Notes under the pieces: generated by a model
Database searches by the model: none
What the model saw: the letters and a program-made list of their open reading frames with translations, nothing else
Told to the model about the DNA's origin: nothing
Shown here: positions 9,201 through 58,760 of the stretch, one piece after another
Numbering within the stretch: the stretch's first letter is position 1
Layout: each line of letters opens with the position of its first letter
Assembly: GCA_018296165.2 (NCBI GenBank)
Contig: JACKQL020000145.1
Span: 1-64,000, forward strand
Length of the DNA: 64,000 nt
DNA from: Termitomyces sp. T153
Lineage: Eukaryota; Basidiomycota; Agaricomycetes; Agaricales; Lyophyllaceae
Direction of reading: 5' to 3'
Program-made: the position numbers and the translations under genes

Positions 9201-10010
9201 ATGCAAGTAGGGGGGTACTACATTCCAGAACTCTCAAGGTGTGGCATTGGCAGCAAAGGCCTGGGCCAGCCACTGGGATGTAGTCTGGCTAGCCCTGATC
9301 TCCACAACAGAGGGCAATGGGTGGATAGTGGTAACATAAATTTGATCCCCTACCTCTATTGCTTCATCTGGGAGCTCTAGTTTATATATACCACCAAACT
9401 CCCCTTCATGCTCCTCCTCCAGGGCTCTGCTGTTGCTCCAATCATCCTCATAGAGGGCCTTTTTATGAGGGAACACCAGAGGTGGGGGGCCCAGGAGGTC
9501 TACATTGGCAAAGGGGAGAGGGCCGGCATGACATGCTTGGATGGCTGTGTGCTCTCAAACTTGGGTCTGACACTCTGCTCTATCCTCCACAGTGCAGGCA
9601 GAGCACTTCCTGGGGCATCTACTCATGGTCACCTCTTCTTTGGTCCAATCAACCTTATTAGGCTCTTGAAGCCACGTGAACCCAAGGATCATGTCTTGCC
9701 TTCCCAAGCTGGTGACAGCAAATATGGCACACTCCACATGATTCCAATAGCAGAGAACCAGGTTGATTACAGAGCTAATTGCACCAGCTTTGTTGAGCAT
9801 TCCGTTGATGTTGTAGACAGGAATGGGCTTGGGAAGGGGCTGTATGGTCAGGCATGGCATTTGACAAACTCCGAGTCCAGGAAAAGTCCCATTGCTCTGC
9901 TGTCTAGGAGAGCTGCAACTCTGCGGTTTTGCTGGGGGTCTGTCAACTTGATCTCCACATCAAGGTGCAAGGAATGGGTGGATGAGCCAGAGGCCATTAG
10001 ATACTGTTGA
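6245..10010 (-). pseudogene. Degenerate Gypsy pol: protease, RT, RNase H, integrase, chromodomain
   Basis: The protease (about 9920-9555) reads LLDSRAMGLFLD, with Arg where the active-site Gly of DSGA should be. Reverse transcriptase (about 9206-8560) has FFSLTNSPATFQTMMNN and YLNNILIY instead of YLDD. RNase H (about 8315-7850) includes FHIEANSSDFATGAVLSQQ and IHDKEMLAIIQLFEEW. Integrase (about 7687-6900) has the HHCC finger (HHDSCIAGHPGQ ... TCDLCLQTKPQ) and the core MDFIVELPDAHGYDAIMVVV. A chromodomain (about 6480-6270) includes KGYGIKDISWEPKENV. It needs several frames and cannot be functional. Confidence 0.9.
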
Positions 10011-16412: not shown

Positions 16413-17260
16413 TGATGGCTACTACTGAAGCACAGACCTCCACAGTCATGTGGCATTTGTACTTGAGAGATAACATTGTATGGGACAACATCACAATTGT
16501 CATAACAATGACCATTCTTTTTAAAGAAGCACCCATTGTCAGGTTTGGCATATTGAGGATAGCCATTATCCCATACTGAGTAGCCTCTTGAAATTTCTTT
16601 GTGTATTTCTTAGAATGTTTGCCATCTACCATGCACTTAGCATTAGGTTTGGCAGCTCCACATGGACCATGGACCATGTTGGTAGTAACAACCTAATAAC
16701 AAAGATAAGCAACTGAATTCAGAATTTAAACAAAGCCAATACCTGATACAATTGAGGTTGACTAACTGGATCTGGAATTTGGGCAGAGACAATGGACTCC
16801 ACATCAGGTGCATCCTTAATCCTGTGATGAAGAGGGGAAAAGATCAGGATGTGCATATGTGGAAGTTCTCTCCTTTGGAATTCAATGATATGAACATAAG
16901 CACACAACTGCCAAAGAGACCTTCCTTAAATATCCTTCACCACAGCATTTCTTTGAGTTCAAATACTCTGGCTACAGTATCAGCAGCTGTATGCTTTTTC
17001 CCATTGACTGCAGGTTCTTTCAAGAGAGCTTCTTCAATTTTTGACCACTTTGGATTGGCAGTCATAGTCAAAAAGAGATCAGATTTTCCAAAATTCCTGC
17101 AGATAGCCATAGAGTTCTGGAATAATTGCTGCATCTGTTGATCATTCCCAGTATAGGAGGAAGGAAGGATAACAAGATGCCTTTGTAGAGTGACTTCTTC
17201 ATATCCAGCAGCAGCATCTACTAAGGGTGCTTATGGGGGAATCCCCAACAAAAATGAGCA
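16413..17260 (-). pseudogene. Helitron Rep (HUH endonuclease) domain, broken
   Basis: Minus-strand fragments in order: DAAAGYEEVTLQRHLVILPS, QNSMAICRNFGKSDLFLTMT, then AYVHIIEFQRRELPHMHILI, which contains the HUH-type His-x-His (PHMH) metal motif, and finally the stretch ending CHMTVEVCASVVAIKY. This is the standard conserved track of Helitron Rep proteins, which nick and re-join DNA ends. Several stops and frameshifts are present, and the downstream part is cut by an LTR fragment. Confidence 0.82.
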
Positions 17261-17261
17261 T

Positions 17262-17455
17262 GTGCATTTGTTCAGTTGGATCTGGGACTTAGCATTGAGT
17301 TGGAAATACAAGGACCTAACCAAATGAAGTGAGGTTGGGTCTGGGACTTAGCATTGAGTAGAATATTGAGGACCTAACCAAATGAAGTGAAGTTGGGTCT
17401 GGGATGAAGCAAGAGCTACAGGCCCATGCTAAAGGCATGGGCTGTAGCTCATTTC
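17262..17455. repeat. Right arm: 60-bp tandem units ending in a near-perfect hairpin
   Basis: About 2.5 units with the core 'aagtgaggttgggtctggga' spaced 59-60 bp, followed by a strong hairpin at about 17414-17451 (gagctacaggcccatgc / ggcatgggctgtagctc). This is the inverted counterpart of 12165-12440. The sequence 9 nt after the hairpin is CTAG, which fits the CTRR consensus of Helitron 3' ends but could be chance. Confidence 0.78.
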
Positions 17456-17655
17456 CAGTCTAGAAAGAAGGAAAGATAACAAGATGGCTTTGTGGAGTAA
17501 CTTCTTTATATCCAGCAGCAGCAGAAATCTCCAACAAAAATGAGCATGTAGAAGTCAATGCACCAAAAAGGCTTCATGAGAACAAGAGAGTTTTTGCATG
17601 CAATAATATATAAGGTGGGCATCTACTGGGGAAAAATCAGTGGCTATGAAGATAG

Positions 17656-18024
17656 TATCAGGAGACTTTCATTTCCAACTTCCATGACTGGCTCCAGCAC
17701 CTCCACAGCTTGTTCAACATCTCTGGGGCTTCTTCCAGAACCTTAGAGTTCTTTGGAGAACTGCAGAGTTCTCCATATTACCTCAGCAGTCATTGCTCTA
17801 GAGTTAGGAGTAGCTCTGGTCATCTGTACAGTAGTCCCCATGCCTCCACTGCCCACTGATGCACCACACCAAGCAGTAGGGATCCTTAGACTTGTTCTCT
17901 TTGGATTCTCCTCTGCTAGGTGATTAGTTACTGATTGTATTGTTGTCTACTCTGCTAATATACTTTGGATTCCCCTCTGCTAGCTGTGTGACTCTGATCT
18001 GCTGCCCTGGAAGTTGCCCTTATA
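17656..18024 (+). repeat. 5' LTR of family A Gypsy (plus copy)
   Basis: Starts TATCAGGAGAC (from TGTCAGGGGAC) and ends TTGCCCTTATA. It holds AGACTTGTTCT at 17888-17898. The adjoining primer-site region (18027-18037) reads AGATCAAGTCT, complementary to that motif at 10 of 11 positions. Confidence 0.9.
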
Positions 18025-18120
18025 GCAGATCAAGTCTTCCAAAACTGGTCTGGAAGCCCTTCATAGCTGCAAGGAACCTCTGAGCCACTACCCATCACTT
18101 CCCCACCAGGACTAAACACT

Positions 18121-19336
18121 GTGGAGTTCTATGTCTCAGCTTGCCAACTCAGACACACCCTCAGAGGCCCCAGCCCCATAGGACAAAGCCTGGACTTGCC
18201 TGCTTCACCTAGAAACCCAGGTGCAATTAATGCAATCATCTCTCACCCACCATACTACCAAGCTCTCTACCCTCCATTAAACAACCAATCTTATCTCCCA
18301 ATCCCTCCAGGCACTGCTCAAATGCCTACCCCCTAACTCTGCCCCCCCTGTGGCCATAGAACCAGCCCCAACTGCATCTGCACCCATCTCTGCAGCTCCA
18401 GTGACCTTATGGCCATGGATTCTGTGTCCCATGCTACCAGACATGTATGACAGTGCCTGCTCTGGCAGGCAGTGATTCCTGCAGTCCTGCCTCACCTATA
18501 TCCACCTCAGCAGGGATGCCTTTGACTCTAACATGTTGAAAGTAGCCTGGGTGCTGTCATATATGAAGACCAGACATGCTTCTACTTATGTGCTGCGAGT
18601 CTTCTGCCACTCCAGAGGTGTTAGCAGCTTTCTGGACTGGGCTGCCTTTGAAAAGGACTTCTGTGTGGAGTTTTCTCCATCAGACCCCACCAAGATGGCA
18701 GCCTTGACACTATGCAATAGGGAGCAGTATGGACAAGGGAAGCATACACTGGATGAGTAGATTGACTCATTCCAGGCTCTGGTGGAGTAGGCCACTTACC
18801 CCGATGGCCTCCAACTATGCCTTACTTTCTGGGATGGCTTGCACCCTGGACTGGTGGAATGCATTGACAATCCAGTAGAGAGTTGCCCTAATGATGAAAA
18901 GATTGTGTCATGGTATGAGGTGGTCTGGGACCAATGGCAACTCATGGAGATCTGGAGGGAGCTCCACCACCCCCATTCTGTGCTGTGCTCAGCTCCAATC
19001 ATCAATCTTTGCTACCCTGCACCTGCCCATCCAATGCTGGCCTTTACTCTAGCTATCCCTGCAGCATGCCCCCTGTTACTGGGAATCCCCATGGATGTGG
19101 ATGCTGCTCCGCTGCTGTACTGGAGATGCCAGAAGCCTGGGCACTTTGTATGGCACTGCCTCCTGGGCCTGGAGGTACACTACCTTTCCATGGCAGAGTA
19201 GGAGGAACTTCTCCTGCAGCTGCTGGCTGCAAAGGATGCTGCTGGAGCTCCATCACTGGATGAGCCTACACTGAAGTTGACTCTGGAGGAGATCAGTGTG
19301 TGCACCTCACCTCCAGAGCTGGAGGGGGATTTTTAG
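18121..19336 (+). pseudogene. Family A Gypsy gag, decayed
   Basis: A Pro/Ser-rich N-terminus (18121-18340) is followed by a capsid-like segment (18533-18760: FCHSRGVSSFLDWAAFEKDF and the following residues), the linker LVECIDNPVESCPNDEKIVS and a knuckle C-x2-C-x4-H-x4-C at about 19120-19165 (CQKPGHFVWHC, with the first Cys now Trp-flanked). It ends ELEGDF at 19336, as in the minus copy. Stops interrupt it at several places. Confidence 0.82.
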
Positions 19337-19347
19337 TTGAGCAACAG

Positions 19348-20108
19348 ATGAGGTGTACACCTCTGTTGCTGAGTGCTAACAGGCTCTCATGTCTATTATT
19401 AGAAAATGAAACTGCCTTTTCTGACACCCTTCATTCTGAAACAGAAGAACCTCAACACCCCTCTTCAGACATACAAACACTAACTCCAGAGCCCCCACTG
19501 AGCTCCCCAACACCTCCAAAGGTCCATCAGTGTGGCTCCACTTGGGCATGTCAAATGCCCCAACAGTATGTGATGGCCTCTGCCCCATCTGCCAACTCCC
19601 TGCACCTCAATGTGGAGATTGAGACAATTGACACTCAGCAAACCCATAGAGTCACAGCTCTTCTAAACAGCAGAGCAATGGGACTGTTCCTGGACTCAGA
19701 GTTTGTCAAATGCCATGGCCTGACCACACAGCCCCTCCCCAAGCCCATTCCTGTCTACAATATTGATGGAATGCCTAACAAAGCAGGTGCCATCAACCCC
19801 ATGGTTGATCTGGTCCTCTGTTATTGGAACCACATGGAGCATGCCATATTTGCCATCACCAGCTTGGGAAGGCAGGATATGATCCTTGGTTTCATGTGGC
19901 TCTAGGAGCACAACCCCAAGATTGATTGGACCAAAGAGGAGGTAACCATGAGCAGGTGCCCTCAGAAGTGTTCTGCCTGTGCCACAGAGGACAGCGGAGC
20001 ACTGCACCTAGGTTTGAGAGCACACAGCCATTTGTGCATGTTGTGCCGGCCCTCTCCCCTTTGCAGATCTAGACTTCCTGGATCCCCTGCCTCTGGTGTT
20101 CCCTCATA
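19348..20108 (+). pseudogene. Family A Gypsy protease region, decayed
   Basis: Contains the retropepsin region LLNSRAMGLFLDSEFVKCHG (about 19660-19720), where DSGA has become NSRA, then QPLPKPIPVYNIDG and SLGRQDMILGFMWL, the usual flap and alpha-helix part of Gypsy proteases. It runs into the insertion at 20114; the continuation is at 26230. Confidence 0.8.
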
Positions 20109-20113
20109 GAGAG

Positions 20114-21272
20114 TGTCAGGGTCCGCTGACCTCGGGGGCGCAGCTGCACTGGGCGAGTCCTTACTAGGCGGGCGTGATTCCCCTGCATTGGTGACCGGAC
20201 ACTCAAAGACATTCAGGGTCCTGGTGGTTTGCACGGGTAATTGGGGAGATGTGATCCAGACAGATCCGGGAAGGTCCGGAGAAGTCGGATTGTGGGGAAA
20301 TGAGACGGTCTTGGCGGGGTTCAGGCAGAAGGCCGTATGGGAGATTTGCGGAAGCAAGGGAGTAGGTGGCTGTGTGATCAATGGGGGCGGAGCCGGGGTT
20401 TGATGGGAGATCATTTGGAGTTGATGGAGTCCGGGACCGGGCGAAGAGTGAGGTTCGGACCTGGTAAGGGGTGTCGGGGTTCGTAATTATAATCGCGGAG
20501 TTCGTGAGGTCGTTAGGGTTGATGAAGAATTGGGCACAAGGGTCAGACGACGTCACCGAGACGGCGTTGGACGAGACATTATGGAACAAGAGTAGATTCG
20601 AGTGGAGGTACGAAACGATAACGAGAACGATAACGAAAAGGGGACGAGACAAGACCGGGAGACTGAGATAAGACCGGGAGACTGAGATAAGACCGGGAGA
20701 CTGAGATAAGACCGGGAAACTGAGAGTAAGGAGAAAGAGATACGAAACGAACACGAAACACAAAGAGGAAACAATCAGACCATAGGTAACGTTAAGCAAT
20801 ATCAAGACCGGAGTACGAAGAGCTACTCGATGACTTATATACTGACTACCGGAGGACTTCGGGGTACGTCGGCTGTGGCGGCGGGGCTTGGCGGGGCTTG
20901 ACGGAGTGGGCGGGTGTCGGTTGTGATCGCAGGTCGTGCCGCGCTGATACGTTGATGGGATCGCGGGTTGTTCCGAGGTTGTCGTGATATTCCGGAATAG
21001 GTCGGAGGAAGCAGGGTGTCGAGTTGATGGTGGGCGAAGATCAGGAATAGCGGGGGTGGTTCTCGGGGTTTGGGAAGCCCAGGGTAAGTGTCAGTGGCTG
21101 CGGGGCAGGCATCGAAGTTGGCCAGGGGGCCGTCGGAGTTAGCCGGGGATGTGTCGGAGTTAGCCGAAGTAGGCGTGGGCATGGGCGGAAGTTCGGCGGA
21201 GCGTTGGGGGTCCTTTTGGGGTTCGGGGGTTTGATGGACGATGTGCGGGGCTTTGGGGAATGGGTCGTGACA
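20114..21272 (-). repeat. 3' LTR of the young family B element
   Basis: From TGTCAGGGTCCGC to GGGTCGTGACA. It contains four 19-bp tandem units (gagactgagataagaccgg) at about 20650-20725; the solo LTR at 1674-2808 has fewer. On the element strand it has a TATA box and the GTCTTGATATT motif at the same spacing as the other copies. Confidence 0.93.
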
Positions 21273-21285
21273 TCACCCCCCTTTC
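21273..21285 (-). other. Polypurine tract of the young family B element
   Basis: On the minus strand GAAAGGGGGGTGA directly precedes the LTR start TGTCACGACCC. This fixes the polarity of the element as minus. The decayed family B copy has the equivalent AGGGGAGGTGA at 59090-59100. Confidence 0.85.
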
Positions 21286-21482
21286 AGCGTCGAGACCCTT
21301 CGAGACGCGGGGCAGGACGGGGATCGGCAGGGCGTGGGAGTCGAAGCCGAGCAATATTGATCAATCCGCAGCGAGTGATAGCGGCGTGGGAGGCGAAGTC
21401 GAAGCGCGGCCGCCGTTTCGTCAGGGTCCTCCTCACTCAATTTAAAGCTTTGGGCGTGCCCCGGGGTTTCCCAAATTTCGTC

Positions 21483-22613
21483 ATGTCTTCCCCCAGCGTT
21501 CCAGTGGTTTCTCCCGCCGATTTAGACGAGGTGGTGGTGTATGACAGTGGGGGTGAGGAGTTCGAGCGTCGGCGCCGGGGTAGCGTTAGGGACCGGAGTC
21601 GTAAGTGTTGTCGAATTCTCCTTTCGGGATGGTTAACGGGGTTCCGGTAGAGTCGTCCGTAGTAGTAGTGGTGGACTTTCCGGGGGTTCCGAAGCGGACC
21701 AAGTTTCGTCCCGCGGTGCCAAAGGGGAAGGGGGCGTCTTCGGTGGTGGTTCGGGGAAAGCGTCGAGCTTCCCCACCCTCGGGGGCGGGACCCAGCAAGA
21801 GGCCGCGTGGGCGCGAGTTGTCGGCGGGGCCTCCCGAGTCTTCCCTCTTTTCCCCTGTCCCTGGCGTTCCCTCGGAGCGGTCGTCGAGTCCCTCCGCGCC
21901 GATTCCTTCAATCACGGAGGTCTTCCTTCGCAAGCAGGTGGAGGCCTTGACGACGTCGTTGGCAGTACGGGAGGGGGAGCTCCGCCGGGCGAGGGAGGAT
22001 CGTGACGCGGCGCGGACGGAGAAGGAAGCGATGGAGCGGGAGAGGAATACTTCGGTGCGCGTGGCGACGGAGCGGGCGCTAGAGGTGCGGGGTCTGCGGG
22101 AGCGTCTGGCGCAGGTGGAGGGGCAACCCGCGGGGGAAGCGGAGGGGCGGGGACGAGTTCCGGAGGGGGATGCGTTGTGGGCGGAGCTGGAGGCGGCGAG
22201 GCGGAGGGAGGATTGGTTGGCCAACGAGGCCGCCTCGGGTCGCGCGGGGATTCTTCGTGAGTTGTCTCCCGTTCCTTCGTTCGTTATTGACGGTTCATTT
22301 TCGGAGTTTAGGCTGGGTGCGGGAGCATCGGGTCCTCTTGGACGGTGCCTCCGCGGCGTTCGCGTCGATTCAGGACGGGTTGACGCAGGGGTCCGCGGTC
22401 CAGCCTCCGGAGTTGCAGCAGGGAATGGCGCGGTTGGAGAGGTTGCTGGCGGGGCATCGGCGACGCAATGCGGTGGCCCCGGGGTCGTGGTGGGAGGTGG
22501 CGGCCGATGCGGGGGAGGCATTGCCGGGGTTGGCGGAGATCCTAGCGGTGGTGCGGGCCCAGATGGAGGTCGACCTGGGGGTTGGGTTTCCGGGAGGTTC
22601 GGGGAGGGAGTGA
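21483..22613 (+). CDS. Antisense coiled-coil protein of family B Gypsy elements (spliced, 341 aa)
   Basis: Three exons: 21483-21600, 21651-22256 and 22312-22613, 1026 nt in all, ending in TGA. Intron 1 (50 nt) is GTAAGT...TTAAC...TAG and intron 2 (55 nt) GTGAGT...TTGAC...TAG; both leave one base of a split codon and the joined frame is open throughout. The protein starts MSSPSVPVVSPADLDEVVVY, has a basic Ser/Pro-rich stretch, a long charged coiled coil (about residues 110-230, REGELRRAREDRDAARTEKE) and a C-terminal domain with WVREHRVLLDG, LLAGHRRRNA, WWEVAADAGEALPG and MEVDL. It is encoded opposite to the LTR polarity, next to the 3' LTR. A decayed homologue at 57937-58760 keeps intron 2 at the same codon. 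Function unknown; a nucleic-acid- or Gag-binding role is only a guess. Confidence 0.85.
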
Positions 22614-25048
22614 GGTGGGTGTGGGCCTCGTTTCTTGTCGCTCTTGGACTTGCTGCCTTCCCGCCTATTGTATATATGATTTTTTGTACGCGAACATGTC
22701 ACTTCTTGGTCCCTGGGCGTGTGAAGTGAGATTTTTAGTTTTGTCTGAGGGCGAAGTAAGCGAAACACGCAGGGGTGTGAGAGGGAGTGGAATCCCTAGT
22801 GAGTTCAGAGGCGGGGGTTACGTCCGCTAGTGCCGTCTGCGCTGGCTAGTCCCGGGGTTGGTCGGGACGGGGCGGGGCATCGCAGGAGGGCTCCCGGGGT
22901 CTGTCGGGGTTGGTGGGAGTTCTCCGGTGGGGTCCCCGGCATTTCGGGCGGTGTCGTTGGATTTGTTTCTCGGAAATTTTCGACTGGGGGTGTAGGGGAC
23001 GTGCGCCGTTTTGGTAGTAAAGGGTGGCCTTTGAATTTTGTACGGCGCCCAACGGGTTCGGGGCTTTGGTTGTCTTGGCGGTGCGGTGGGCGGGGGGTAA
23101 TGGGGGTCTTCCCATGGTCTAGCCCTTGCGTCGGTATTGGTGGTGAAGGCGGGCGGGCCTTTTTTTATTTATTGGCGGGGTTGGGTGAGGCGGGGTTCGT
23201 CTTCGCAGTATAGTTGGTCCGGGTCGGGGTTGTGTTCTGGAGTGCTGCGTCTGTGGGCGGGCCTGCTTCGGGTGGCGCTTTGGTGTGCTCCGGAGTGTCG
23301 ATGACCGAGGGGGTAGGATGCGGGGTGATCAGTCCCAACCAGTTCCTTCGGGTCCGGGGCCCAATTTGGGGTTCCGGGTCATCTACGTGATATTGCTCTC
23401 CTGACCAAAGGTAAGCCCACGGCGGACAAAGGGGGTCTTACGTATTTCTGATACTTCCTCGAGTTCGGAGGTTCGGGGGTCAGTGGTTCCTTCATCGGGA
23501 AGAAGTGGGTGGTCCCGGAGTCGACTCAAGGGTCACTTGGTGGGGGTTTGTTGGTTGTTCCTGGTTGTTGGGGCGGCGGGAAGGTCGGCCGCGGGGGGCA
23601 CTGGAGTGGGGCTCCCCGGGAGATGCGGCAGGGTCGGATTTACTCTTCGTTCGTGTTCCGGAGCGGTCCGGAGATTGTGCAAGTGCAGGGGTGATAGTGG
23701 GGGGAGGCACTGCCAGCTTGTCTGGAGGCCCCGGTGATGTGGCCCCTGTTCGGGCGGACATATTCCGGTGTAGGGGCGGGGTTCGGAGTGGGTGGTGATT
23801 TCTGTTGCGGAGTTGGGGCTACCAGGGCATCGTTGTTGAGCCGGCGCTGTGAGTTTTCTTGGTCAGATGTCGGGGTCGGAGCGGAGGCCCTGGAGTTGTG
23901 TCGCCAGGGTCCGGAGCCGGGTTGATGGGTTCGGAGGGGTCTGGGTGGGACTGTTTCGGGCTGGCGCGGGGTCGTTTTGGGTCGTCGAGCCAGATGGGGG
24001 AGGTCTGTTGAGGATATGGGAGCGCGTGCCCTTGGGGTTGTCGGGTCGCTTAAATGGCCGATCGTTGTTTTCTGGATGATGGTGGGGCTTCTCCCTCCCT
24101 TGTATGAACATGTCAGCGAATTTAGAGCACTTAGGGAACTACTTCGTATAGGGTCCTTTTTCCCTATAGTTAGTTCGGGGTGGCCCCTATGCTGGGGATT
24201 CCTTCGTGGGAGGTGGCGTAGTCTGGTGGCGGAGTGTAAGCTCGGGGATGTTTTGGTCCTGTTCCGGGGTTGTCAGGGTCGGGTCGGGGAAGTCGGGGCC
24301 CCTTCATTTGTTGGGCGGAGGTGACGGCCGATCGATCGAGGTCCGGAAGCAGGTCACGGGGTTGGAGCATAGCCTAGGTCTGAGGTTCTTGTCCTGTGGT
24401 GGATTCGAGCTTGATTTCGATGGTTTCGGGGTTAGTTGTCGGAGGGTTTATTTCCTTGGAGGGGGTCGATAATAGGGTTTGGTGATGTTGTTGGTGATTA
24501 GTCGCGTTCGTCGGTCGGCGGGGTTGCTGGGGGGCCGGTGGATCCACAGGCGGGCTTCGGGGAAGCGCGTTCTCAGTGGTTTCTTTGTAGCTGGCGATCC
24601 TCGCGCTGTGGGTGACTGTTCCATGGCAGGTTGGCATTATTGTGGGTCGGAGGGCTGGCGCGGTGCCGGAGACCTTGTTACTCATTTGATCGGATGGTCG
24701 CCAGGCTTTAGGATGTTATTCTTTGGGTGATGTCGGGGTCGACTTTGTGCGAGAGAGCGGAGTTGGCGGGGAGTGTAGGGGTGGGGTGGAAGATGAGTTG
24801 ACGGTTTGCGCGAGGGGTTGGGAGTTGGGTGTGAGTTGGGGAAGGTGTCCGTGGGGGGAGCCGTTGTATGAAAGTAACTGGAGCGGAGGGGACGTTTGGT
24901 GTCGGATCCACGACTCAATGTGCCTCGGCAAATTGGGCAGGGCCGTATGAATCATAAGGGTTCCCCGGCGCGGGTAGACCATAGACATCGGAGTTATTTG
25001 ATTGTGTGTGCGGAGATAATGCGGGCATCACGGACGGGGTAAGGTCAG
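22614..25048. other. Internal non-coding region of the young element
   Basis: GC- and CpG-rich DNA with only short, low-complexity Pro/Gly/Arg frames on both strands. No gag, protease, RT or integrase motif was found. Shortly after the antisense gene, 'tatatatgattttttgta' (about 22670) could serve 3' end formation. This region probably replaces the lost gag-pol, as in large retrotransposon derivatives (LARDs). Confidence 0.6.
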
Positions 25049-25060
25049 GTCTTGATATTA
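25049..25060 (-). promoter_or_regulatory. Self-primer binding site of the young family B element
   Basis: On the element strand TAATATCAAGAC directly abuts the 5' LTR. It is complementary to GTCTTGATATT in the same LTR (plus-strand coordinates 25746-25756), 33 nt downstream of the TATA box (25782-25789). This fits Tf1-like self-priming by the mRNA 5' end; it resembles no tRNA 3' end that I recognise. Confidence 0.75.
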
Positions 25061-26224
25061 TGTCAGGGTCCGCTGACCTCGGGGGCGCAGCTGCACTGGG
25101 CGAGTCCTTACTAGGCGGGCGTGATTCCCCTGCATTGGTGACCGGACACTCAAAGACATTCAGGGTCCTGGTGGTTTGCACGGGTAATTGGGGAGATGTG
25201 ATCCAGACAGATCCGGGAAGGTCCGGAGAAGTCGGATTGTGGGGAAATGAGACGGTCTTGGCGGGGTTCAGGCAGAAGGCCGTACGGGAGATTCGCGGAA
25301 GCAAGGGAGTAGGTGGCTGTGTGATCAATGGGGGCGGAGCCGGGGTTTGATGGGAGATCATTTGGAGTTGATGGAGTCCGGGACCGAGCGAAGAGTGAGG
25401 TCCGGACCTGGTAAGGAGTGTCGGGGTTCGTAATTATAATCGCGGAGTTCGTGAGGTCGTTAGGGTTGATGAAGAATTGGGCACAAGGGTCAGACGTCGT
25501 CACCGAGACGGCATCGGACAAGACAATATGGAACAAGAGTAGATTCGAGTGGAGGTACGAAACGATGACGAGAACGATAACAAAAAGGGGACGAGACAAG
25601 ACCGGGAGACTGAGATAAGACCGGGAGACTGAGATAAGACCGGGAGACTGAGATAAGACCGGGAAACTGAGAGTAAGGAGAAAGAGATACGAAAACGAAC
25701 ACGAAACACAAAGAGGAAACAATCAGACCATAGGTAACGTTAAGCAATATCAAGACCGGAGTACGAAGAGCTACTCGATGACTTATATACTGACTACCGG
25801 AGGACTTCGGGGTACGTCGGCTGTGGCGGCGGGGCTTGGCGGGGCTTGACAGAGCGGGCGGGTGTCGGTTGTGATCGAAGATCGTGCCGCGCTGATACGT
25901 TGATGGGATCGCGGGTTGTTCCGAGGTTGTCGTGATATTCCGGAATAGGTCGGAGGAAGCAGGGTGTTGAGTTAATGATGGGTGGGCGAAGATCAGGAAT
26001 AGCGGGGGTGGTTCTCGGGGTTTGGGAAGCCCAGGGTAAGTGTCAGTGGCTGCGGGGCAGGCACCGAAGTTGGCCAGGGGGCCGTCGGAGTTAGCCGGGG
26101 ATGTGTCGGAGTTAGCCGAAGTAGGCGTGGGCATGGGCGGAAGTTCGGCGGAGCGTTGGGGGTCCTTTTGGGGTTCGGGGGTTTGATGGACGATGTGCGG
26201 GGCTTTGGGGAATGGGTCGTGACA
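25061..26224 (-). repeat. 5' LTR of the young family B element
   Basis: 1164 bp, paired with 20114-21272. On the element strand: TATATAAG (25789 to 25782), then 33 nt later the proposed transcript start GTCTTGATATT (25756 to 25746), then the four 19-bp units, then the end CTGACA at 25061. Confidence 0.93.
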
Positions 26225-26229
26225 GAGAG

Positions 26230-29010
26230 GCCCTCTACAAGGATGTTTGGAGCAACAGCAGAGCCCCAGAAGAGGAGCATGGAGGGGAGTTCGGTAGCAT
26301 ATATGAGCTGGAGCTCCTAGACAAAGCAGTAGAAGTGGGGGATTGAATTTATGGCTACCACTGTACACCTGCTGCCCTCCATTGCAGAAATACAGGCTGG
26401 CCAGACTATGTCTCAGCTGCTGGCCCAGGCATTTGCTGCTAATGCCATGCCTCAAGAGTTCTGGGATGTGGTATCCCTCTATCTTCATGCATTCAAGGAT
26501 GTGTTCTCCAAAGCTTCATTTGACTTGCTTCTAGAGTGCAAGAGGTGGGACCCTGCCATCAAACTGCTACCAGACTCTGCAGCCTCCAGCTGGAAGGTCT
26601 ACCTGCTTGTGTCCCAGAAACAGAACAAGCTCAATGCATTCCTGCAGGAGAACCTGGACTCTGGTCAGATTTGCTCATCCAAGTCTCTGATAGCTTCTCT
26701 GGTCTTGTTCATTAAAAAGAAGGATGGCTCCCTTCAACTGGTCCAGGACTACTGGGTACTCAACACTATGATGGTTAAGAACTGTTACCCTCTCCCCTTC
26801 ATCTCCAAGCTCATCAACAACCTTTGGGGTGCATGATACTTCACTAAGCTGGACATTCAGTGAGGTTACAACAATGTGTGCATTCAGGAGGGAGATGAGT
26901 GGAAGGCTGCCTTCTGAACCAACCAGGGATTCTTTGAGCTGCTTGTTATGTTCTTTGGACTCACCAATAGCCCTGCTACCTTTCAGACCATGATGAACAA
27001 CATATTCTGGGACCTCATAGTGGAGGGCATAGTGTGTGTGTACCTTGATGACATCCTCATCTATACCAAAACACTGGAGAAACACTGTCAGATTGCTTGC
27101 CTTGTCCTGGAATGCCTCTGCCAGCACCAGCTCTACCTCAAGCCAGAGAAGTGCAAGTTTGAACAAACCTGGGTCAAGTACCTTGGCCTGATCATATCAC
27201 ATGGAACCACAGAGATGGACCTGGTGAAGGTAGCAGGCATAGCAGAGTGGCCAGAGCCCAAGAACAAGAAGGAGGTGCAGGCATTCCTTGGTTTCACAAA
27301 CTTCTACCAGAGATTCATTCAGGACTTTTTGCACCATGCCTGTCCACTATTTGACCTCACTGGAAAGGATGTTCCATGGAGTTGGGGACCTCTGGAGCAG
27401 ACAGCCTTTGACACTCTCAAGCATGCCATGACCTCTGGACCTGTCCTCCTCTTCCTGGATGACAGCTCTCCCTTCTAGCTGGAGGCTGACAGCTTCAACT
27501 TTGCTACTGGGGCTATGCTCTTGCAGCAATCTCTGGAGGATGAGAAGTGGCATCCAGTGTCCTTTTACTCCAAGAGCCTGAACATGGTGGAGTGGAACTA
27601 TGAGATCCATGACAAAGAGATGCTGGCCATCATCTGGTCATTCAAGGAGTGGCAGCACTTCCTGGAAGGTGCACAGCACAAGTTTGAGGTCTGGATGGAT
27701 CACAAGAACCTCAAATACTTCTAGATGGCCAAGAAGCTCAATTGCTAACAGGCCCAGTGGTCCCTCTACCTTGCTAACTTCAACTCCTCTTTGCACCACA
27801 ATGGTATATTGGGTCCTACACTAGTACCTGTGATCTCTGCCTCCAGACCAAGCTCCAGCACTGACTTCCCCATGGACAGTTACACCCACTACCCATGCCC
27901 ATGGAACAATGGAGTGTGGCATCCATGGACTTCATTGTAGAGCTCCCTGATGCCCACAGTTATAATGCAATCATGGTGGTGGTAGACCTATATGGCAAGC
28001 AAGCACCCTTCATTCTGACCCACACCACCTGCTCCACCATGGGCACCACAAACCTGTACTAGAAGAATGTCTGGAAGCTCCACAGTCTCTTCAATGCCTA
28101 CATCTCAGATTGGGGACCACAATTTGTGGCAGAGTTCACTCAGGAGCTCTACCAACTGCTTGGAGTGAAGCTCCACACCACTACCACCTACTACCCACAG
28201 TCCAATGGCTAGATGGAATACATAAACCAGGAGTTAGAGCAGTATCTCTGCCTCTTTTGCAACAAACACCAAGACAACTGGGATGAACTCCTCCCTGATG
28301 CTGAATTCCAATACAACAACTACATTCACATGTTCACCCAGTTTTCCCCATTCTTCCTTGACATGGGACAGCATCTGTGCATGGGTTTTGAGCCCCAGGC
28401 CTGGCCCTCAGAGAATGAGGCAGTCAACAAATTTGTGGACCAGATGAAGAGGTTGCAGGAGGAGGCCCAAGCAGCACTGGCAAAGGCAAAGGATGACATG
28501 GTGCAATACTATGACTGTGGGAGGACCACAGAGTGCAAATATCAGCCCGGAGATCAAGTCTACCTGGATGCATCCAACATTATGACTACCCAGCCCTCAA
28601 AAAAACTGGCACACTGTCAGTTGGGACCTTTCACAGTGGAATGACAGGTAGGACCTTTGGCCTACTAACTCTGGCTCTCCATGGGAATGTGCCAGCTTCA
28701 TCCAGTGTTCAATGTGGTCAAGCTAACTCTGGTCCTTAAAGATCCCATTCCAGGGTGTTGTCTGCCCCCTTTGCTGCCCCCCATGATGGTTAACAACAAC
28801 AAAGAATACAAGGTGGAGGAAATCCTGGATAGTTGTTTATTCTGGAGATGACTACAATACAAGGTGAAGTGGAAAGGCTATGGGATTGAGGATATCTTCT
28901 GGGAGCCACGGGAGAATGTACACACCCCCAGACTTGTCAAGGAGTTCCACCAGAGACATCCAGAGGCCCCACATGCCATACAAGGGATCTACCCTATCTT
29001 GCCAGCAGAC
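26230..29010 (+). pseudogene. Family A Gypsy pol, decayed (RT, RNase H, partial integrase, chromodomain)
   Basis: Continues the gene cut at 20108. RT (26351-27060) includes FIKKKDGSLQLVQDYWVLNT (YWxLN from YRxLN, CGG to TGG), FGLTNSPATFQTMMNNIFWD and an intact catalytic YLDDILIY. The thumb/RNase H part includes YLGLIISHGTTEMDLVKV, LGFTNFYQRFIQDFL and EIHDKEMLAIIWSFKEW. A deletion near 27.8 kb removes the integrase zinc finger; the core resumes at 27900 (MDFIVELPDA) with YISDWGPQFVAEF and YYPQSNG. Chromodomain words (KGYGIEDIFWEPRENVHTPR) lie at 28870-28940. Several TGA/TAG stops derive from CGA or similar codons. Confidence 0.9.
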
Positions 29011-50965: not shown

Positions 50966-51369
50966 ACTCTCTCTTACCCCATTCTCAATGTCTGCACATA
51001 ATTACACATACTCACCCACTAGCTATCTAACCAATGTCTATAATAGACCAGTACTTAAAACTTATTATGCCCCATTCTATCTGACCCTGCCTGCAGATTG
51101 CTATGTTGCACCCACTCCCCAATATTGGGTTCCAGACTAGAATCAGGCACTCTATGCCCCTTCCATCAGTCAGGGAATGCACCCAGACTGGCAATGCTCC
51201 TTGTTGTACCCCACTGAAGGGACCTACCCCTGCATGCTACCAGAAGGACTGCCTGGGACCCTGATAGCCACATGAGCATCCTCAGCCCCAGCCAATTCAG
51301 CCTTCATCACCCCAGAGCCCTACTATCCCTACCCAATCCATGCTGCAGCTCTGGTCTCACTAGAAAAAC

Positions 51370-53640
51370 TAGACCACTACTCCCCCCCTCAGCCCCAATC
51401 CTCCACTGCATTCTTGGTCCAGACTCCACCTTCTTCTAAACAGCAACAGGTTGGAGCCTGCACCCAGCAGTGTGACAAAGTCTTCTGCTCTCTGCATCTC
51501 CTCCACAGAGTTTGCCAAATGCACTTGTGCCCTCCTTATCAGCCTCAGACACCACAACATCTGCAGGACTCCAGAAACATGGGCAGATTACCTTCTTGAC
51601 TTTCACAAATGCTACCAGCTGAGCACTCTCTCCAAGAGCACTTAGAACACTCTAGGAATAGATGCCAACCTTCAAAACAAACTATACACCCTGATTGAGG
51701 AAAACCACACCAGTCTGAACCCCTGACAATTCAAGGGCCTGTTGGATCCAGCCTGCTCCTTCCATGTACAACAAGAAGAACTGGTCAGAGCATGGATTGA
51801 AGCCCCAGCTCCTATCCCTTGCAATCAGGAAGAACTCAATGCCACCTCCAATATCCTGAAGTCCTTCAACTCTATAGGAGGATTCTTTGACCAACCCACT
51901 GCTCACACCATGGGCCTCTTGGCATGCCCCCAAGCATACTCTGTTTCCAGTGCTTTCCACACCTGGAACTAACCCCCAGGACCTGAACCATGCACTCAGA
52001 GATCCCCTTAACTCAATCCCATCAACAATAATCTTGCCCCCAACCACACCCTCTCCTATATTGATGAGCCAGAAAACCCTAGCAGGAAACCTGCTCCTTG
52101 GAATGGAGCCCTAGGGACCCTCTAGGACAGGCCCCCCCCATGTTGATCTGCATGCCTCCTGTGGTAACACACCCTAAAATGTGCCCTTGCCCTGCCAATA
52201 TGCTCCAGCCCCCTTACATCAACCCATGGGCCCCAAAGCACCCAGACCCTCTATTCCCCCTGACTAGCCTCAACCCCTCATTCCTCCAATCTCTCTGCTG
52301 AACTGACCCCCTGAGGCTAACAGCAACTTTGGGACCCCTAGAGGACTCTCCTCCCTGTTGGGCCCTGGGGCCTTCCTCAGGCAACACTGGCCCACCTCTG
52401 GATAGCAGACCTCCAGGTGGATGGAGCCTGGCCATGGACACCTTCCCCTCTCAGCACAGAGGCAGGAATAACTACTACTATTATTACAATGCCAGACTCC
52501 TGCCCCAAACCCAGAATGCCCAAGACAACATTCACAATGCATTCACTTGGAAAGGTAAACTTGACATCCAGAAGCCAGAGCCCCTCACTGGCTGCAAACC
52601 CCAGAAATGGAGGACCTTCCTGATCCAATGTTTCACTATGTTCTAAGCTAAGCCTATGACCTTCCAACTTCAGAGCCATAAGTGGCCTTTGCTGCCTCAT
52701 ACCTACAGGGCATCACCTTTGACCACTACATAGCACTCCAGTTTGACCCCAACAACCCAGTACTCTTGAATGGCTTGCTTTCACTCAGGAATTTTCTAGT
52801 AAGTTCAGAGTATGTGACACTGTAGCAGAGGCAGAAGAAGACCTCTTCAACCTCCAGATGTGTGACAATGAATGGTTCATGACATTTATTATCTAGTTTG
52901 AACAAGAGGCCTATGAAACAGGCTGGAATTACAACACCCTCTCATTTTCCCTCTGCTGCATGCTCTTTCAGAGAATCAAGGAGATTCTCTGCCTTGCACC
53001 CAAGCAGTCCATGTATGATGGTTACAAGGCACTTGTCACACAGATTGATCAATGTTATTGGGAAGACTGGAGCAAGAACAGCTCTTAGTTGAAAGTACTT
53101 GTAGTCCAAAGATGGGAGGCCTACAATGAGTGGTAGGCCTGGAATGCAGGAAACAAACCAAGGGTCTGGTAAGAGGCCATGTGGAAGGGGCAACACTTGT
53201 CAGAATTATGGACAGAGAACTAGTGCAGCCTGAGGGCTAGAACTGGGGCCAGCAGATAGGGAAAACAAAGGAGAATAAAGGAAAACCATAAGGAGGGAGA
53301 ACAGGACAGAGAGGGAATGAGACATTCCCTGACAGCCAGTACTAATCAACCACCAGGACCCTGCCCCCCACCCAACTCAATGCAGCCAACCTCCACAAGA
53401 CTCCAGAGCCCCTGGATCCCAACCCCAACAATTCCCATGACCTGGACAATGTCCCAACCCCTACAGAAGATAAAGAGGCCCTATGCACAAATTGGAGCAG
53501 GAACAGACTCTGGATTGACATACGAGGGGAGACACAGGAGAAACAATAAAAAGAGGGCATGTACATTTTATGTGGCAAGCAGGGACATTTCATCAGTAGT
53601 TGCTCTGAGTGCCAGGTAATGGGACACACCATATGGACTA
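51370..53640 (+). pseudogene. Family B Gypsy gag, decayed
   Basis: A Pro/Ser-rich N-terminal part (51414-52300) is followed by the capsid FTWKGKLDIQKPEPLTGCKP, KWRTFLIQCF..., FAASYLQGITFDHYIALQF and, across frames, NLQMCDNEWFMTFI and FEQEAYETGWNYNTLS, the standard Basidiomycete Gypsy gag pattern. The zinc knuckle reads CGKQGHFISSC with CTFYV/ILCG frames at about 53560-53610. Many TAG/TGA stops. Confidence 0.8.
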
Positions 53641-54219
53641 TCAATGGGGAGGACTGCAATTACTAGTTCACAGAAAACAAATCAGCAGTTTAGGTCCTGA
53701 AGATGCACTAAATTGCAGATCAGACACCAACATTTTCTCCACCCTGGTCACACTCCTCTGCACAATGGTTTTCTCTCTGGACACTCTCAAAACATCTCCC
53801 CTTCTCTGCCAGCTCTGTCCCAACCCTGGTCAACAGCAGTGCAACCAACAACTTCATTGATAAATCCCTGATGGCACTTGCTCCACAACCCCCCAGCTCC
53901 TCCCCACCCCCATCCTTCTAAAGCTCTTCAACAGTGATCCTACCTCTACTGAAGACATCACCCTTTGTGTGGAGATGTCCATTACTTTTGCCAATGGACT
54001 TGACAGGACCTCTGGCTGTTGGCCATGAAATTGCATGCTCCCACACTCCTTATTCTCATGACAACCAACCCCCACATTGACTGGCTCAGCCTCACCCTCC
54101 ACCTTGACCAGGATAGCTTGCCCAATGCCAGACCTGTCCCTTTTGATATCTCACCCCACCCTAAGGGCCTGGAAGACACCACCAATGTCCCCTGGACCCC
54201 CCCCCAACAACTCCACTCA

Positions 54220-57200
54220 AAGTCTGCACAATCATTCATCATCAATGTTCTACTGGGCAACTCCTCTATGGTCCTCCCAGCCCTTGTTGACAGCAGAGCC
54301 TCCAGCATGTTCATCAGCAACCAGTTTGAGACATCAACTCCAAGCATGCCTAACAGCCACCATCCCCCTCCACCTCCAGTTCCCTTTAGACTCTGACAAC
54401 CCCAACTCCAACCCCAGCAACTCCAGAGCCACCAGCATTCCCACCATAGGAAAACCAAGAAGAGAAATAAGATACACTCCCACCCCAGTCCTCCTTGAAT
54501 ACATTTCAAAGACTTCTCCCTAACATTCCCTAAAACTAGTACAAAGGTCTGAAATATCTGACCTGGCACCCTTAGGCAACTCCAGACCCCACTGCTGCAA
54601 CTCCAACACCTAATTACACTGACCTGGAAGCCCTCAACATTGAAATCATCAGCACTGTTCCCTTTGCATGCATCCTATAAGTCAGCACTCCTGCTTACCA
54701 GCTCCAGATCACCCTGGCACTACTGGCAGAGCACCTATACACTAGTACCACCCCACCAGAGTCAAAAATGGAGGAACAGATTTTGCATGAAGTAGTTTCT
54801 ATGAAGTATCATGAATTTGTTGACATATTCTCCAAAGGAACTGCAAAGGAGCTCCCTCCACACCAATCTTATGACCACAAAATTGATCTCAAAGAAGGCA
54901 CCTCCCCTCCATTTGGCAAGATCTACAACATGTTGGAAGTCAAACTCCAGGCTCTCAAAGACTACCTCAATGACATGCTCAGTAAAGGTTTTATATGTCC
55001 ATTGATCTCCACCACTGGAGCTCTAGTTCTGTTTTCCAAGCAGGACAGCTCTCTCTGCCTCTGCATTGACTACTGGGAACTTAACAAATTCACCAAAAAG
55101 AACTGGTATCCTCTTCCCCTGATTAGTGACTTTGTTGACTGCCTCTGCAGTGCAAAGATCTACACCAAGATAGACCTCTGCTCTGGCTACAACAATGTCT
55201 GGATTGCTCCAAGGCATGAATGGAAGACTGCCTTCTGCACCTGCTACAGCCTCTTCAAATAGCTTGTAATGCCCTTCAGAATGACCAACTTCCCTGCCAC
55301 CTTTCAGTACTTCATGAATGACATCTTCCACAACATGAACAATGTTTTTGTTATCATATACTTGGACAACATTCTGATCTACTTGAATTCCCTAGAGGAA
55401 CATCCAGAGCATGTCTGCTGTGTCCTAGAACAACTCCAGGAGTACCACCCCCATGCCAAACCCAAGAAGTGCTCCTTCCACACCATGGAGGTCAAATACC
55501 TTGGAGTTATTGTTACTCCAGATGGCATATGTATGGACCCAACCAAGGTCAAGGCCATTCTCAACTGGCCTCCATTGCAAAATGTCAAAGAGGTACAGTC
55601 TTTTCTGGGGTTTGCTAACTTCTATTGCTGGTTCATTGACATCTACTCTGGGATCATGAAACCCCTCAATTGGATCACCTGGAAGAACACCTCCTGGGAC
55701 TAGAATAGCAAATGCTAAAGTGTTTTCACCCTCCTCAAAAAGACCTTCACCTCTGCCATTTTGACCCCTCCCTGCTAATAGTACTCAAATGCAATACCTC
55801 TGACTATGCCATTGCTGCAATACTCTCCCAGTTGGACTCCAGAGGGAAGGATCTCTGCCCCATTGCCTTTTACACCCATTTGATAATCCTCACAGAGCTC
55901 AACTATGACATCTATGACAAAGAACTCCTTGCTATCATCAAAGCCTTCTGGCAGTGGAGAGCCTACCTTGAAGGAGCCCTGCATCACATCCAAGTCTACT
56001 CCAACTGCAATGACCTATGATACTTCACCACCACCAAGCAGCTCAGCTGCTGACAAGCTTGTTGGTCCAAAGCACTCTCTGAGTACAACTTCACCATCCA
56101 CTATTGCCCTAGTTGACTTGGTACAAAACCCAATGCCCTCACCCAAAAGCCTGATGTGTATCCAAAGAAGTCATTTGAAGCTGAGTAGAATGCATTTAAC
56201 CATTAAGTGGTAATCCCCCCCAAACACCTTTATGCCATGCTGATTATGAATGAAGAAAAGATCCTTCACCAAATTTGAGATGCACCTCTGGACCCTTTCT
56301 GCACCCAGCATGATCCCTGCAACAACTCTGCTGATGAGCCAGCAGCTGACCAACTCTTCACACTACCCCTGGACCATTTACTCTTACTCCAGGAAGGATG
56401 TATCTATGCTCTGGACCACAAGCCCATTCACCTTGGCATAGTCTGGTGGCATCACAATTACAAACTCTAAGGACATCCAGGAATCCATAAGACCCTCCAA
56501 CTCATTTCCCAGACTTACTTTTGGCCAAAAACGAAGCAGGATGTCATACAATACATATGGGTCTGCAAACCATACTTCCAGGCCAAGGTACTCCACCATC
56601 ACATCTATGGCCTGCTGAAACCCCTCCCCATTGGCTGCCACCCCTGGTCCTTGATATCAATGGACCACATTAGAAAGCTTCCTGACTCTGAAGGCTTTGA
56701 TGCCATCTTTATTGTCATCTGCTGCCTCACCAATTAGCAAGCTATCTTCATCCCCTGCCACACTACCAACAACACTCTGGAGTTTGCCAGGCTATTCTTC
56801 CTCAAGCATGTATTCTCCAAGCATAGACTCCCAGACAACATCATCTCTAATCACAGCCCTTTCTTTGTCTCCCACTTCTAGCAATCATTGTGCAAGGCCC
56901 TCAAAATAAAGACTAACCTATTAATTGCCTATCTATGGAAACCAATGGACAAACAGAATGAGTAAACCAGACCTAGAACAGTATCTCCACCTCTACATTA
57001 ATTATTTACAGAACAACTGGTATGCAGAACTTCCCCTCACCAAGTTTACTTATAATAACACTCCTTACTCAACCACCAGAGTTTTCCCTTTTTATGCCAA
57101 CAAGGGATACAACTCCCAGCTCATACTATTGCTTAAAGATATCCCCTATGATCCTCCACCAGTTCTTCTGGGACAAAATCAACACTGCCAATCAAGCCTA

Positions 57201-57660
57201 TTCCAAGCATGCCAATACTCAATGTGACCCCACTCCCAACTGGTCTCCTAGAACTCTGGTTTGGCTTGATTGATGCATCTTCAAGACTCAGAGGCCCTCC
57301 GTCAAGCTTGACCATAAATGACTTGGCCCCTTCAAGATCCTCTGAAAGGTCTTGACTCATGCCTACAAACTCAACCTATCTCTGGGCCTAAAGGGCCTCC
57401 ACCTAGTTTTCCACATCTGCCTCCTTGAGAAATATACTCTGGACCCCTTTCCTGGACAACACCTCAGCCAACTACCACCTGTCAAAGTCAAAGATGAGTA
57501 TCCCTACAAAGTTGACTAAATCCTTGACTCCCACCTCATCTGCAGTTGACCCCACTACCTGATCTATTGGAAGGGCTACAGACCCAAGGACAACACTTGG
57601 GAACCCTGCAAAAATTGCTCTGGCACCCCTGCCAAACTCTGGGACTCCCATCAATGACAC
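54220..57660 (+). pseudogene. Family B Gypsy pol, decayed
   Basis: Protease: ALVDSRASSMFIS (DSGA changed to DSRA, about 54285-54325). RT: HEFVDIFSKGTAKELPPHQS, LCIDYWELNKFTKKNWYPLP (YRELN changed to YWELN), MPFRMTNFPATFQYFMNDIF and YLDNILIY (YLDD changed to YLDN, about 55360). RNase H: KCNTSDYAIAAILSQLDS and YDIYDKELLAIIKAFWQWRA. Integrase: QTYFWPKTKQDVIQYIWVCK, then the core around 56690-56940, where the SDRG motif reads SNHS. Chromodomain: DEYPYKVD...YLIYWKGYRPKDNTWEP. Catalytic residues are lost mainly through CpG transitions. Confidence 0.88.
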
Positions 57661-57936: not shown

Positions 57937-58760
57937 TCACTCTTCCTCCCCCTCTGAAACTACCCTTGCCACCCTCCCAATCAAATCCACCTCCATATGG
58001 GCTACCACTATGGCCAAAACCTCTGGATGCCCAGGTAGGAGCTCCCCCACATCAGTTGCCACCTTCCACCATAAACTGGAGTCTGCTGCATTCCTCCACT
58101 GGTGCCCTATCAGCAGCTGCCCCATCTGTCTGAACCTCTGCTCTAGCTCTGGAGAAAGATTCCAGGCATCTGTGCCAGTCCATTTCTGCACTGATACATG
58201 AGTGGCCAACACCCTGTCCAGGAGAATCTGGTGCTCACAAACCCAGTCTGCCATGTGTTAGGAGAGCTGGAATAGGAGGAAACAAGGGACTCACACATAA
58301 TCCCCCTCTGCCTCAAGGCTGCCTCATTGGCCAGCCACTCCTTGTGCTTTCTTGCAGCCTCCACCACTGCCTGGAGCACACCCACTTCTGGTACTAACTG
58401 CTGTACCCCCTGCTTTGCCCATGCCTCCAACTGCCCCAACTGCTCCTGCAGTCCCTGTGTAACAGCCTTCTAATTCCACTATGCCATATATCCATCCCTC
58501 CATGCCATATCCTGCTCCCTCTGCATTGTGTCACAATTTCCCCCCACTCTCTGGAGCTCCTCCTTGCAGGTTTCCAACATCCTTGTTAGTGCCTCTACCC
58601 ACTAGTGCAAGAGGGCCTTGGAAATTGAGGAGGATGGCTTGAAACCTGGATCATGCCCACTCCCAGGATGGGCATTGATGAGTGTGCCTGTAGAGCTAGG
58701 GCTGACTGCAATAACAACCATGGAGTTTGGGAGGAGCCTCTAGACAGGCCCACCACCACT
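57937..58760 (-). pseudogene. Antisense coiled-coil gene remnant of family B Gypsy
   Basis: The minus strand reads VVIAVSPSSTGTLINA, ALLH*WVEALTRMLETCKE, LQEQLGQLEAWAKQG, KEWLANEAALRQRGIM, then an intron (about 58293-58247, GTGAGT...CTAAC...CAG). After it come YWVCEHQILLDRVLATHVSV, LIGHQWRNAADSS, LWWKVATDVGELLPG and AHMEVDL, ending EGEEE at 57937. It aligns end to end with the intact protein at 21483-22613 (WLANEAA, LLDG, RNA, WWEVA, MEVDL), and the intron splits the same codon before WV. The gene is tail-to-tail with pol, about 280 bp after the chromodomain. Confidence 0.85.

Follow-up and report, generated by a model that had tools for sequence, protein, structure and literature searches.

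In a window of 64,000 nucleotides from Termitomyces sp. T153 (positions 1 to 64,000 of contig JACKQL020000145.1), an intron-containing gene was found to lie antisense inside a Gypsy long terminal repeat (LTR) retrotransposon at 20114-26224. By its substitution pattern the gene is real, encoding a protein under purifying selection in two forms: a three-exon form in the window element, which lacks gag-pol, and a four-exon form in autonomous relatives such as the one at positions 370359-381173 of contig C2 (here the C2 element). We consider it probable that this is an accessory gene of self-priming Gypsy elements, whose product would act in the nucleus as a dimerising regulator of its own element, and that the window element is a derivative living on the gag-pol of relatives.

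A plus-strand gene of 341 codons in three exons, with GT-AG introns of 50 and 55 nt, had been predicted in an earlier note made from the letters of the window. This gene model was confirmed, as the exons join without a stop into a frame of 1026 nt (341 amino acids and a stop codon). The gene strand is G-rich (43% G within the gene). In the lines below, differences between copy subfamilies A and C are counted by coordinate modulo 3.

21289..21482, plus strand: presumed promoter and 5′ leader of the antisense gene, conserved relative to the C2 element although noncoding
21483..21600, plus strand: exon 1 (ATG, acidic stretch, RRRR); 8 of 10 A-C differences at mod 3 = 2, the wobble position of the model
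21601..21650, plus strand: intron 1, 50 nt, GTAAGT..GTAG, phase 1, as intron 1 of the C2 gene
21651..22256, plus strand: exon 2, with the basic patch KRR..KRPR and the presumed coiled coil; 30 of 43 A-C differences at mod 3 = 1
22257..22311, plus strand: intron 2, 55 nt, GTGAGT..TTAG, phase 1; position and phase as intron 3 of the C2 gene
22312..22613, plus strand: exon 3, with the C-terminal region WVREHRVLLDGASAA...WWEVAADAGE...MEVDL; 9 of 12 A-C differences at mod 3 = 2 and 0 of 12 at mod 3 = 1

Internal positions 1-217, which include the noncoding leader, were 76.7% identical to the C2 element over 223 columns, and the shared blocks comprised AATATTGATC, a GCGGCCGCC-like block and an ATTAAAA-like box. 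The ~200 bases from the polypurine tract to the ATG are presumed to be a candidate promoter, which may be active on the strand of the gene.

The polarity of the element was read from its ends. Its LTRs flank an internal region of ~3.79 kb, and the target-site duplication GAGAG was found at 20109-20113 and 26225-26229.

20114..21272, minus strand: 3′ LTR (left on the plus strand), 98% identical to 25061-26224
21273..21288, minus strand: polypurine tract GCTGAAAGGGGGGTGA, abutting the 3′ (left) LTR; a near-identical tract precedes the 3′ LTR of the C2 element
25047..25060, minus strand: primer site AATATCAAGACC, abutting the right LTR and complementary to the element's own LTR just past the TATA box
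25061..26224, minus strand: 5′ LTR with TATATAAG at ~25789-25782 (minus strand); same layout in the autonomous C2 element

The minus strand immediately inside the right LTR reads ATAATATCAAGACC. Its complement in the LTR, GGTCTTGATATT, begins 32 nt past the start of TATATAAG; the complementarity spans 12 nt and was matched in 2 of 20000 base shuffles. The primer site of the C2 element, TAATATCAAGACT, has a 13-nt LTR complement, AGTCTTGATATTA, at the equal distance (32 nt) from TATATAAG (TATATAA), and the final base is altered there on both sides, in the primer site and in the LTR complement, giving a C/T covariation between the two families. In Gypsy elements of the Tf1/sushi type the primer site is complementary to the 5′ end of the RNA, an arrangement called self-priming. 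The window and C2 elements share the self-primer site with Tf1-type elements, as the C2 element does an SH3_Tf2-1 domain after the integrase; Tf1 is not known to have an antisense gene. Judged from these sites, the self-priming arrangement of both elements is Tf1-like, with a predicted RNA start. Self-priming is also described as a mechanism in PMC2864245.

The genome (72.4 Mb, 307 contigs) contained 803 places that matched the self-priming site with at most one mismatch, and 2 that matched a reversed control; the former number suggests that related elements make up a large share of the repeats. For contigs C1 and C2 the first 100 of the 803 places, ending at C2:2325364, were set against the reverse transcriptases (RTs) listed there, the RT list being the best 150 of 2302 candidates in the genome. 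A primer site was found within 9 kb upstream of 11 of the 15 listed RTs, on the same strand at 3972-4199 bases for ten and on the opposite strand at 2924 bases for one; of the remaining four RTs, two are located past C2:2325364, where the site list ends. All 10 gene copies found on these two contigs with the window gene had a primer site on the opposite strand, 2196-3911 bases away.

The polypurine tract, the primer site and the strand of gag-pol in the C2 element indicate that the window element has a minus-strand genomic RNA, so that the three-exon plus-strand gene is antisense to it. The minus polarity proposed in the earlier note was thus upheld by homology to the C2 element, the LTR complement and the covarying base. 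Plus polarity was rejected: a plus-strand site pairs with the LTR over at most 7 nt, and no polypurine tract is present at the right LTR. The element had also been called young. Its LTRs are identical at 1141 of 1164 positions with 5 gaps. The observed/expected ratio of CpG was 1.03-1.17 in the element versus 0.01-0.03 in the surrounding older elements, and the retention of CpG inside with its depletion around points to a young insertion into old elements. Ratios of 0.006-0.03 in the older elements at 17000-20100, 26300-29000 and 50900-59820 point to strong CpG-directed mutation of repeats.

The C2 element, with LTRs 98.5% identical, carries gag and pol. Pfam searches of its frames placed gag, protease (PR), RT, RNase H (RH), integrase (IN) and SH3_Tf2-1 all on the primer-site strand, in the Ty3/Gypsy order gag-PR-RT-RH-IN between the LTRs; its 1304-aa frame gave 59.3 bits for SH3_Tf2-1 and no chromodomain match up to E 0.1. 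On the opposite strand, downstream of the integrase, lies a gene with exons of 124, 239, 871 and 311 nt, introns of 51, 49 and 51 nt and a product of 514 aa. The window product was 47% identical to this product over 296 columns (exons 2 and 3), and the two window introns correspond to the first C2 intron (phase 1 in both) and to the third (in position and phase 1). A middle part with CASCTRRGEQCEFEEPASGVRRDTSVCLPCRSRHEKC is absent from the window family; we infer that it was lost there, not gained by the autonomous form.

The four-exon gene was likewise found to be constrained. In an alignment of 17 copies, the ratio of non-synonymous to synonymous substitution rates (dN/dS) relative to the C2 copy was 0.25-0.40 in 15 of 16, the sixteenth (0.74) being near-identical with 9 differences. 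A shift of wobble phase was seen at the 49-nt intron when 14 copies were counted (L098 and L099 were left out as too close). The third intron measured 51 nt in the majority of copies; it was 52 nt long in five diverged ones and 57 nt in one, and the 52-nt length implies that splicing would be required to hold the frame. Sixteen of the 17 copies keep six cysteines in the order C-x2-C-x6-C-x15-C-x2-C-x6-C, which is Zn2Cys6 spacing; two of these have a stop inside the motif, and the seventeenth is frameshifted there. At one locus (L084, C1:1056500-1058600) the autonomous antisense gene has lost the 3′ portion of intron 1 together with the beginning of exon 2, but is otherwise open.

For the window family, 56 copies were aligned, comprising the window copy, 29 of the 30 loci of the first search (L012, which is the window copy, was omitted), 7 further copies and 19 picked for divergence. 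Both introns were present in all of them. Intron 1 had GT in 55 and AG in 56 copies, and intron 2 had GT in 50 and AG in 56. The whole frame is kept in 26 of the 29 fully covered copies of the closest subfamily, a sample of best-scoring copies that leans to intact ones, and in 32 of all 49 fully covered copies. Between the window copy and 19 copies of other subfamilies dN/dS was 0.17-0.29 at dS 0.12-0.47, and on transversions alone the ratio of the corresponding proportions (pN/pS) was 0.12-0.19. The earlier note had raised a value near 1 among copies as an objection to its own reading, and between subfamilies no such value was seen. Against three close copies the ratios were 0.74, 1.10 and 2.96, on few changes, as expected from decay after insertion; the means within or between decayed subfamilies were 0.29-0.58. 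Fixed differences between subfamilies A and C were 34 synonymous to 9 non-synonymous versus 134 to 224 among single-copy changes (Fisher p = 2.8e-7, with CpG decay uncorrected in the single-copy changes).

The position of the differences was also informative. By coordinate mod 3 (0, 1, 2), A and C differ at 1, 1 and 8 positions in exon 1, at 5, 30 and 8 in exon 2 and at 3, 0 and 9 in exon 3, so the wobble phase is mod 2, 1 and 2 for the three exons (table 30, 8 versus 1, 17; p = 1.6e-7). The introns gave 5, 1, 4 and 2, 1, 0, with no codon pattern in intron 1. The wobble position thus shifts at each intron as the spliced model needs, which is a prediction of splicing from substitutions. Change per site between A and C was 0.23 in intron 1 and 0.05-0.10 in the exons, about two- to fivefold faster; intron 2, at 0.064, was not faster than the exons, and the rate contrast therefore rests on intron 1. 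The copies L055-L059 and L061 carry an in-frame insertion of 54 nt in exon 2, and L055, L058 and L059 also one of 12 nt in exon 1.

These patterns bear on two explanations that would remove the gene. According to the first, the true gene is a stop-free frame of 370 aa that runs in the genomic-RNA sense on the minus strand (22698-21586), the plus exons being its mirror image. This frame is open over most of the gene, which is why the low pN/pS of the mirror reverse frame matters: it was 0.32, and 0.12 on transversions versus 0.14 for the true frame, while the other reading frames gave 1.2-1.3. That similarity speaks against the plus-strand model, and the phase test separates the two frames. A 370-aa gene predicts mod 3 = 1 throughout, whereas only 1 of 10 A-C differences in exon 1 and none of 12 in exon 3 fall there; the homology to the C2 gene was moreover found in plus-strand frames. 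The minus-strand frame was ruled out by this test and is regarded as very improbable. According to the second, a G-rich strand has produced chance frames and splice-like sites without any protein, as the G content and the long open frames on both strands would allow. Codon-level selection, the intron phase switch, the in-frame 12- and 54-nt insertions in relatives and an intron at the identical position in a family only 47% identical argue against such an artefact; it was ruled out by the dN/dS and phase tests in both families, and its probability appears negligible.

The window gene belongs to a repeat family, with 126 matches from 116 scored candidates in the genome. When a 421-aa segment of the C2 gene served as query, 99 places were scored. 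Of these, 78 lie 566-3684 bases 3′ of a listed RT (72 of them at 2372-2462), all 78 antisense to it; the other 21 have no listed RT within 6 kb. Seen from the RTs, families taken together and both lists being capped, at least 78 of the 150 listed have an antisense gene match on their 3′ side. A second search used the C-terminal part of a third related family, whose decayed remains lie in the window:

50967..57417, plus strand: decayed gag-pol of the third family, found by tblastn with gag and pol of the C2 element
57940..58760, minus strand: decayed antisense gene of the third family, 3′ of the integrase and on the strand opposite pol (best tblastn piece 46.6% over 88 aa, E 4e-28)

This search gave 150 places, 98 of them outside the earlier 99, and added 21 antisense pairs: for the 98, the nearest RT on the 5′ side of the match was antisense in 21 cases (2281-2465 bases) and sense in one (4421 bases), and none was listed for 76. 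The earlier note had asked whether relatives lie antisense and 3′ of Gypsy integrases; within this genome they do so relative to RTs in 78 of 78 matches with a listed RT and in 21 of 22 in the second search. Elements with a gene between pol and the 3′ LTR, antisense to gag-pol, are known as aORF-3R elements; the C2 element and the 78 of 99 matches have this layout, and the window copy itself has no pol. An ordinary host gene captured once, the other doubt voiced in the earlier note, was ruled out by the copy number and by the antisense placement 3′ of RTs.

No protein match to gag or pol below E 0.2 was obtained in the internal region of the window element (21274-25061). This lack of gag-pol goes beyond the earlier note, as does the fuller form of the gene, with its Zn2Cys6-like part, in an autonomous Gypsy element. 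The only trace of gag-pol was a 70-base DNA similarity (72.9%, E 1e-5) to a stretch inside pol of the C2 element. Large retrotransposon derivatives (LARDs) are non-autonomous elements that keep LTRs, primer site and polypurine tract without gag-pol and occur in many copies. The window element has these LARD-like features but, unlike LARDs, keeps a spliced gene under selection. A copy on contig C17, 80-93% identical to the window, is in register with it over internal positions 1834-3627, deviating only by an inserted solo LTR and ~145 extra bases, and has no room for pol; by this comparison, elements without pol are not only the youngest. All 10 gene copies on C1 and C2, two of them with 88% and 86% protein identity, have their primer site at a distance of 2.2-3.9 kb; this spacing and the C17 copy are indirect evidence on the presence of pol in copies of subfamilies B, C and D. 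Four LTR copies that have no gene close by, on C46, C38, C17 and C16, proved to be solo LTRs with 5-bp duplications (TCACC, GGTCT, ATATG, CTAAG), three inside related internal regions and the C16 one not; no gag-pol was found via them. At C1:1553718-1555868, C13:1128639-1130945 and C108:13373-14843, LTR copies of the family are direct neighbours, separated by no bases or by up to a few dozen, in a seemingly tandem arrangement.

That a lineage without gag and pol persists with a spliced antisense regulator as its sole selected gene, one favouring its own LTR family, is possible, although we stop short of calling it probable. If so, selection on a trans-acting protein would be visible in an element unable to move by itself. 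If selection acted in the gag-pol-less elements, it would point to a family-specific advantage and not a general replication function, and the selection on the shorter form suggests that the shorter product favours its own family.

The window product matched no known family in the collections searched, in line with the earlier note: no match was found in Pfam up to E 1, in NCBIfam with three pieces of the product, or in the PDB by sequence. A search for relatives in viral contigs gave 20 pattern matches, none of which was a relative. The AlphaFold model contained one long, confident helix (residues ~161-210, predicted local distance difference test (pLDDT) 74-87), which is presumed to be a coiled coil. 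The basic stretch KRRASPPSGAGPSKRPRGR resembles a bipartite nuclear signal, and the KRR..KRPR patch of exon 2 is nuclear-localisation-like. From the helix, the basic stretch and the conserved leader we infer a regulator like HBZ of human T-cell leukaemia virus 1 (HTLV-1). A promoter of its own near the 3′ end of the element would drive the gene against the genomic RNA, and the antisense transcript would be spliced; the introns would persist, since only their reverse complement, which is unspliceable, is present in the genomic RNA. In autonomous elements the product combines the six-cysteine cluster, which may bind zinc, with the basic patch, the long helix and the conserved C-terminal region. 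It would enter the nucleus, dimerise and regulate transcription of its own element, as HBZ does in HTLV-1. The window element, which has neither gag-pol nor the cysteine cluster but retains the remainder of the regulator, would be a derivative using gag-pol made by relatives.

Several results weigh against this proposal. The AlphaFold model as a whole was poor (mean pLDDT 47.4, predicted template modelling score 0.22). The cysteine cluster of the C2 gene scored 15.4 bits (E 0.02) with Pfam Zn_clus (PF00172), under the cut-off of 21, and was not among the 21 matches of a genome-wide Zn_clus search; the C2-type gene is therefore not filed as a Zn2Cys6 protein, though the spacing fits. The window family has no such cluster, and DNA binding by it cannot be the entire function. 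When every RT within 6 kb was counted in the third-family search, 3 sense neighbours accompanied the 21 antisense ones. The diverged copies used for dN/dS were read within the gene only, and part of the selection may have acted in pol-carrying elements.

The product might instead help at a later step, in nuclear import, in integration tethering or as a particle component on RNA of its own family. Purifying selection also acts on the form that has no cysteine cluster, so what is conserved consists of the presumed coiled coil and the C-terminal region, as would fit a protein-protein adaptor. A helper role is nevertheless judged unlikely, because 16 of 17 autonomous copies retain six cysteines at Zn2Cys6 spacing, and a particle component would hardly be expected to have its own leader on a separate strand. 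Alternatively, the shortened product might be a self-limiting or parasitic antagonist that pairs with the full protein of autonomous elements to block or redirect it, which would agree with the retention of the presumed dimerisation part and the loss of the presumed DNA-binding part. An antagonist of the supplier of its own gag-pol would be hard to maintain by selection unless it favours its own family, and this explanation is considered decidedly improbable. The nuclear self-regulator remains the preferred reading.

Antisense accessory genes are a class already known. The gene brtn of Boty is reportedly owed to Zhao et al. 2011. Boty, of Botrytis cinerea, carries this gene on the antisense strand (PMC7264820, PMC8365987, PMC4227169; these papers and those cited below were available as excerpts, to which the comparisons are limited). 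It resembles the C2 element in being a fungal Gypsy element whose extra gene lies antisense between pol and the 3′ LTR; compared by description only, it differs from the C2 and window genes in that introns, a zinc cluster and an antisense-gene-only family are not mentioned for it in the excerpts. The statement in the earlier note that antisense extra reading frames are known in plant Gypsy elements holds, yet with Boty they are not limited to plants (PMC7264820). The plant aORF-3R elements include maize Grande with gene23, rice RIRE2 and Retand with TRP28 (PMC7264820, PMC11963269). The antisense gene of Grande is described with its own promoter and a nuclear protein, as is proposed here (PMC7264820); DNA binding is predicted for TRP28, and the Retand elements include non-autonomous ones (PMC11963269). 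These elements differ in host kingdom, and their excerpts do not mention introns (PMC7264820, PMC11963269). No TRP28 match was found in the window or C2 products by Pfam.

Spliced antisense transcripts are described for HTLV-1 to -4, where HBZ is a basic leucine zipper regulator of the LTR (PMC10186651). HBZ of HTLV-1 and APH of HTLV-2/3/4 resemble the window gene as spliced antisense genes at the 3′ end of an LTR retroelement. The HTLVs are animal retroviruses, however, and the likeness is drawn without a claim of sequence relation; HBZ is expressed from the 3′ LTR, whereas the conserved leader of the window gene is internal to it.

Among the papers listed by searches of the open-licence PMC literature, seen largely as titles and beginnings of abstracts, none reported a basidiomycete Gypsy element with a spliced antisense gene, although such reports may exist. 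Relative to the known class, three features are new and were not met in the literature examined: several introns, a cysteine-cluster architecture, and a family that has no gag-pol and retains the antisense gene alone. What antisense genes do in LTR retrotransposons is described as an open question (PMC7264820, PMC11963269). Here one gene can be compared between gag-pol elements and elements that kept almost nothing else, and its multi-intron structure means that correctly spliced reads from many copies would be attributable only to the antisense strand. The case is also a warning that retroelement genes can hide among the intron-containing 'hypothetical proteins' of such genomes.

Elsewhere in the window, two other Gypsy groups (6530-9221, minus strand; 26453-28716, plus strand) gave no antisense-gene match by tblastn at E 1e-3. 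At 59825-62816 a further pol fragment was found on the plus strand, with a 30-aa antisense-gene match on the minus strand (62816-62727) and a plus-strand primer site at 61224. In keeping with an agaricomycete host, profile searches of the genome as a whole gave 21 matches for Zn_clus, 1 for hydrophobin and 110 for KDZ transposase.
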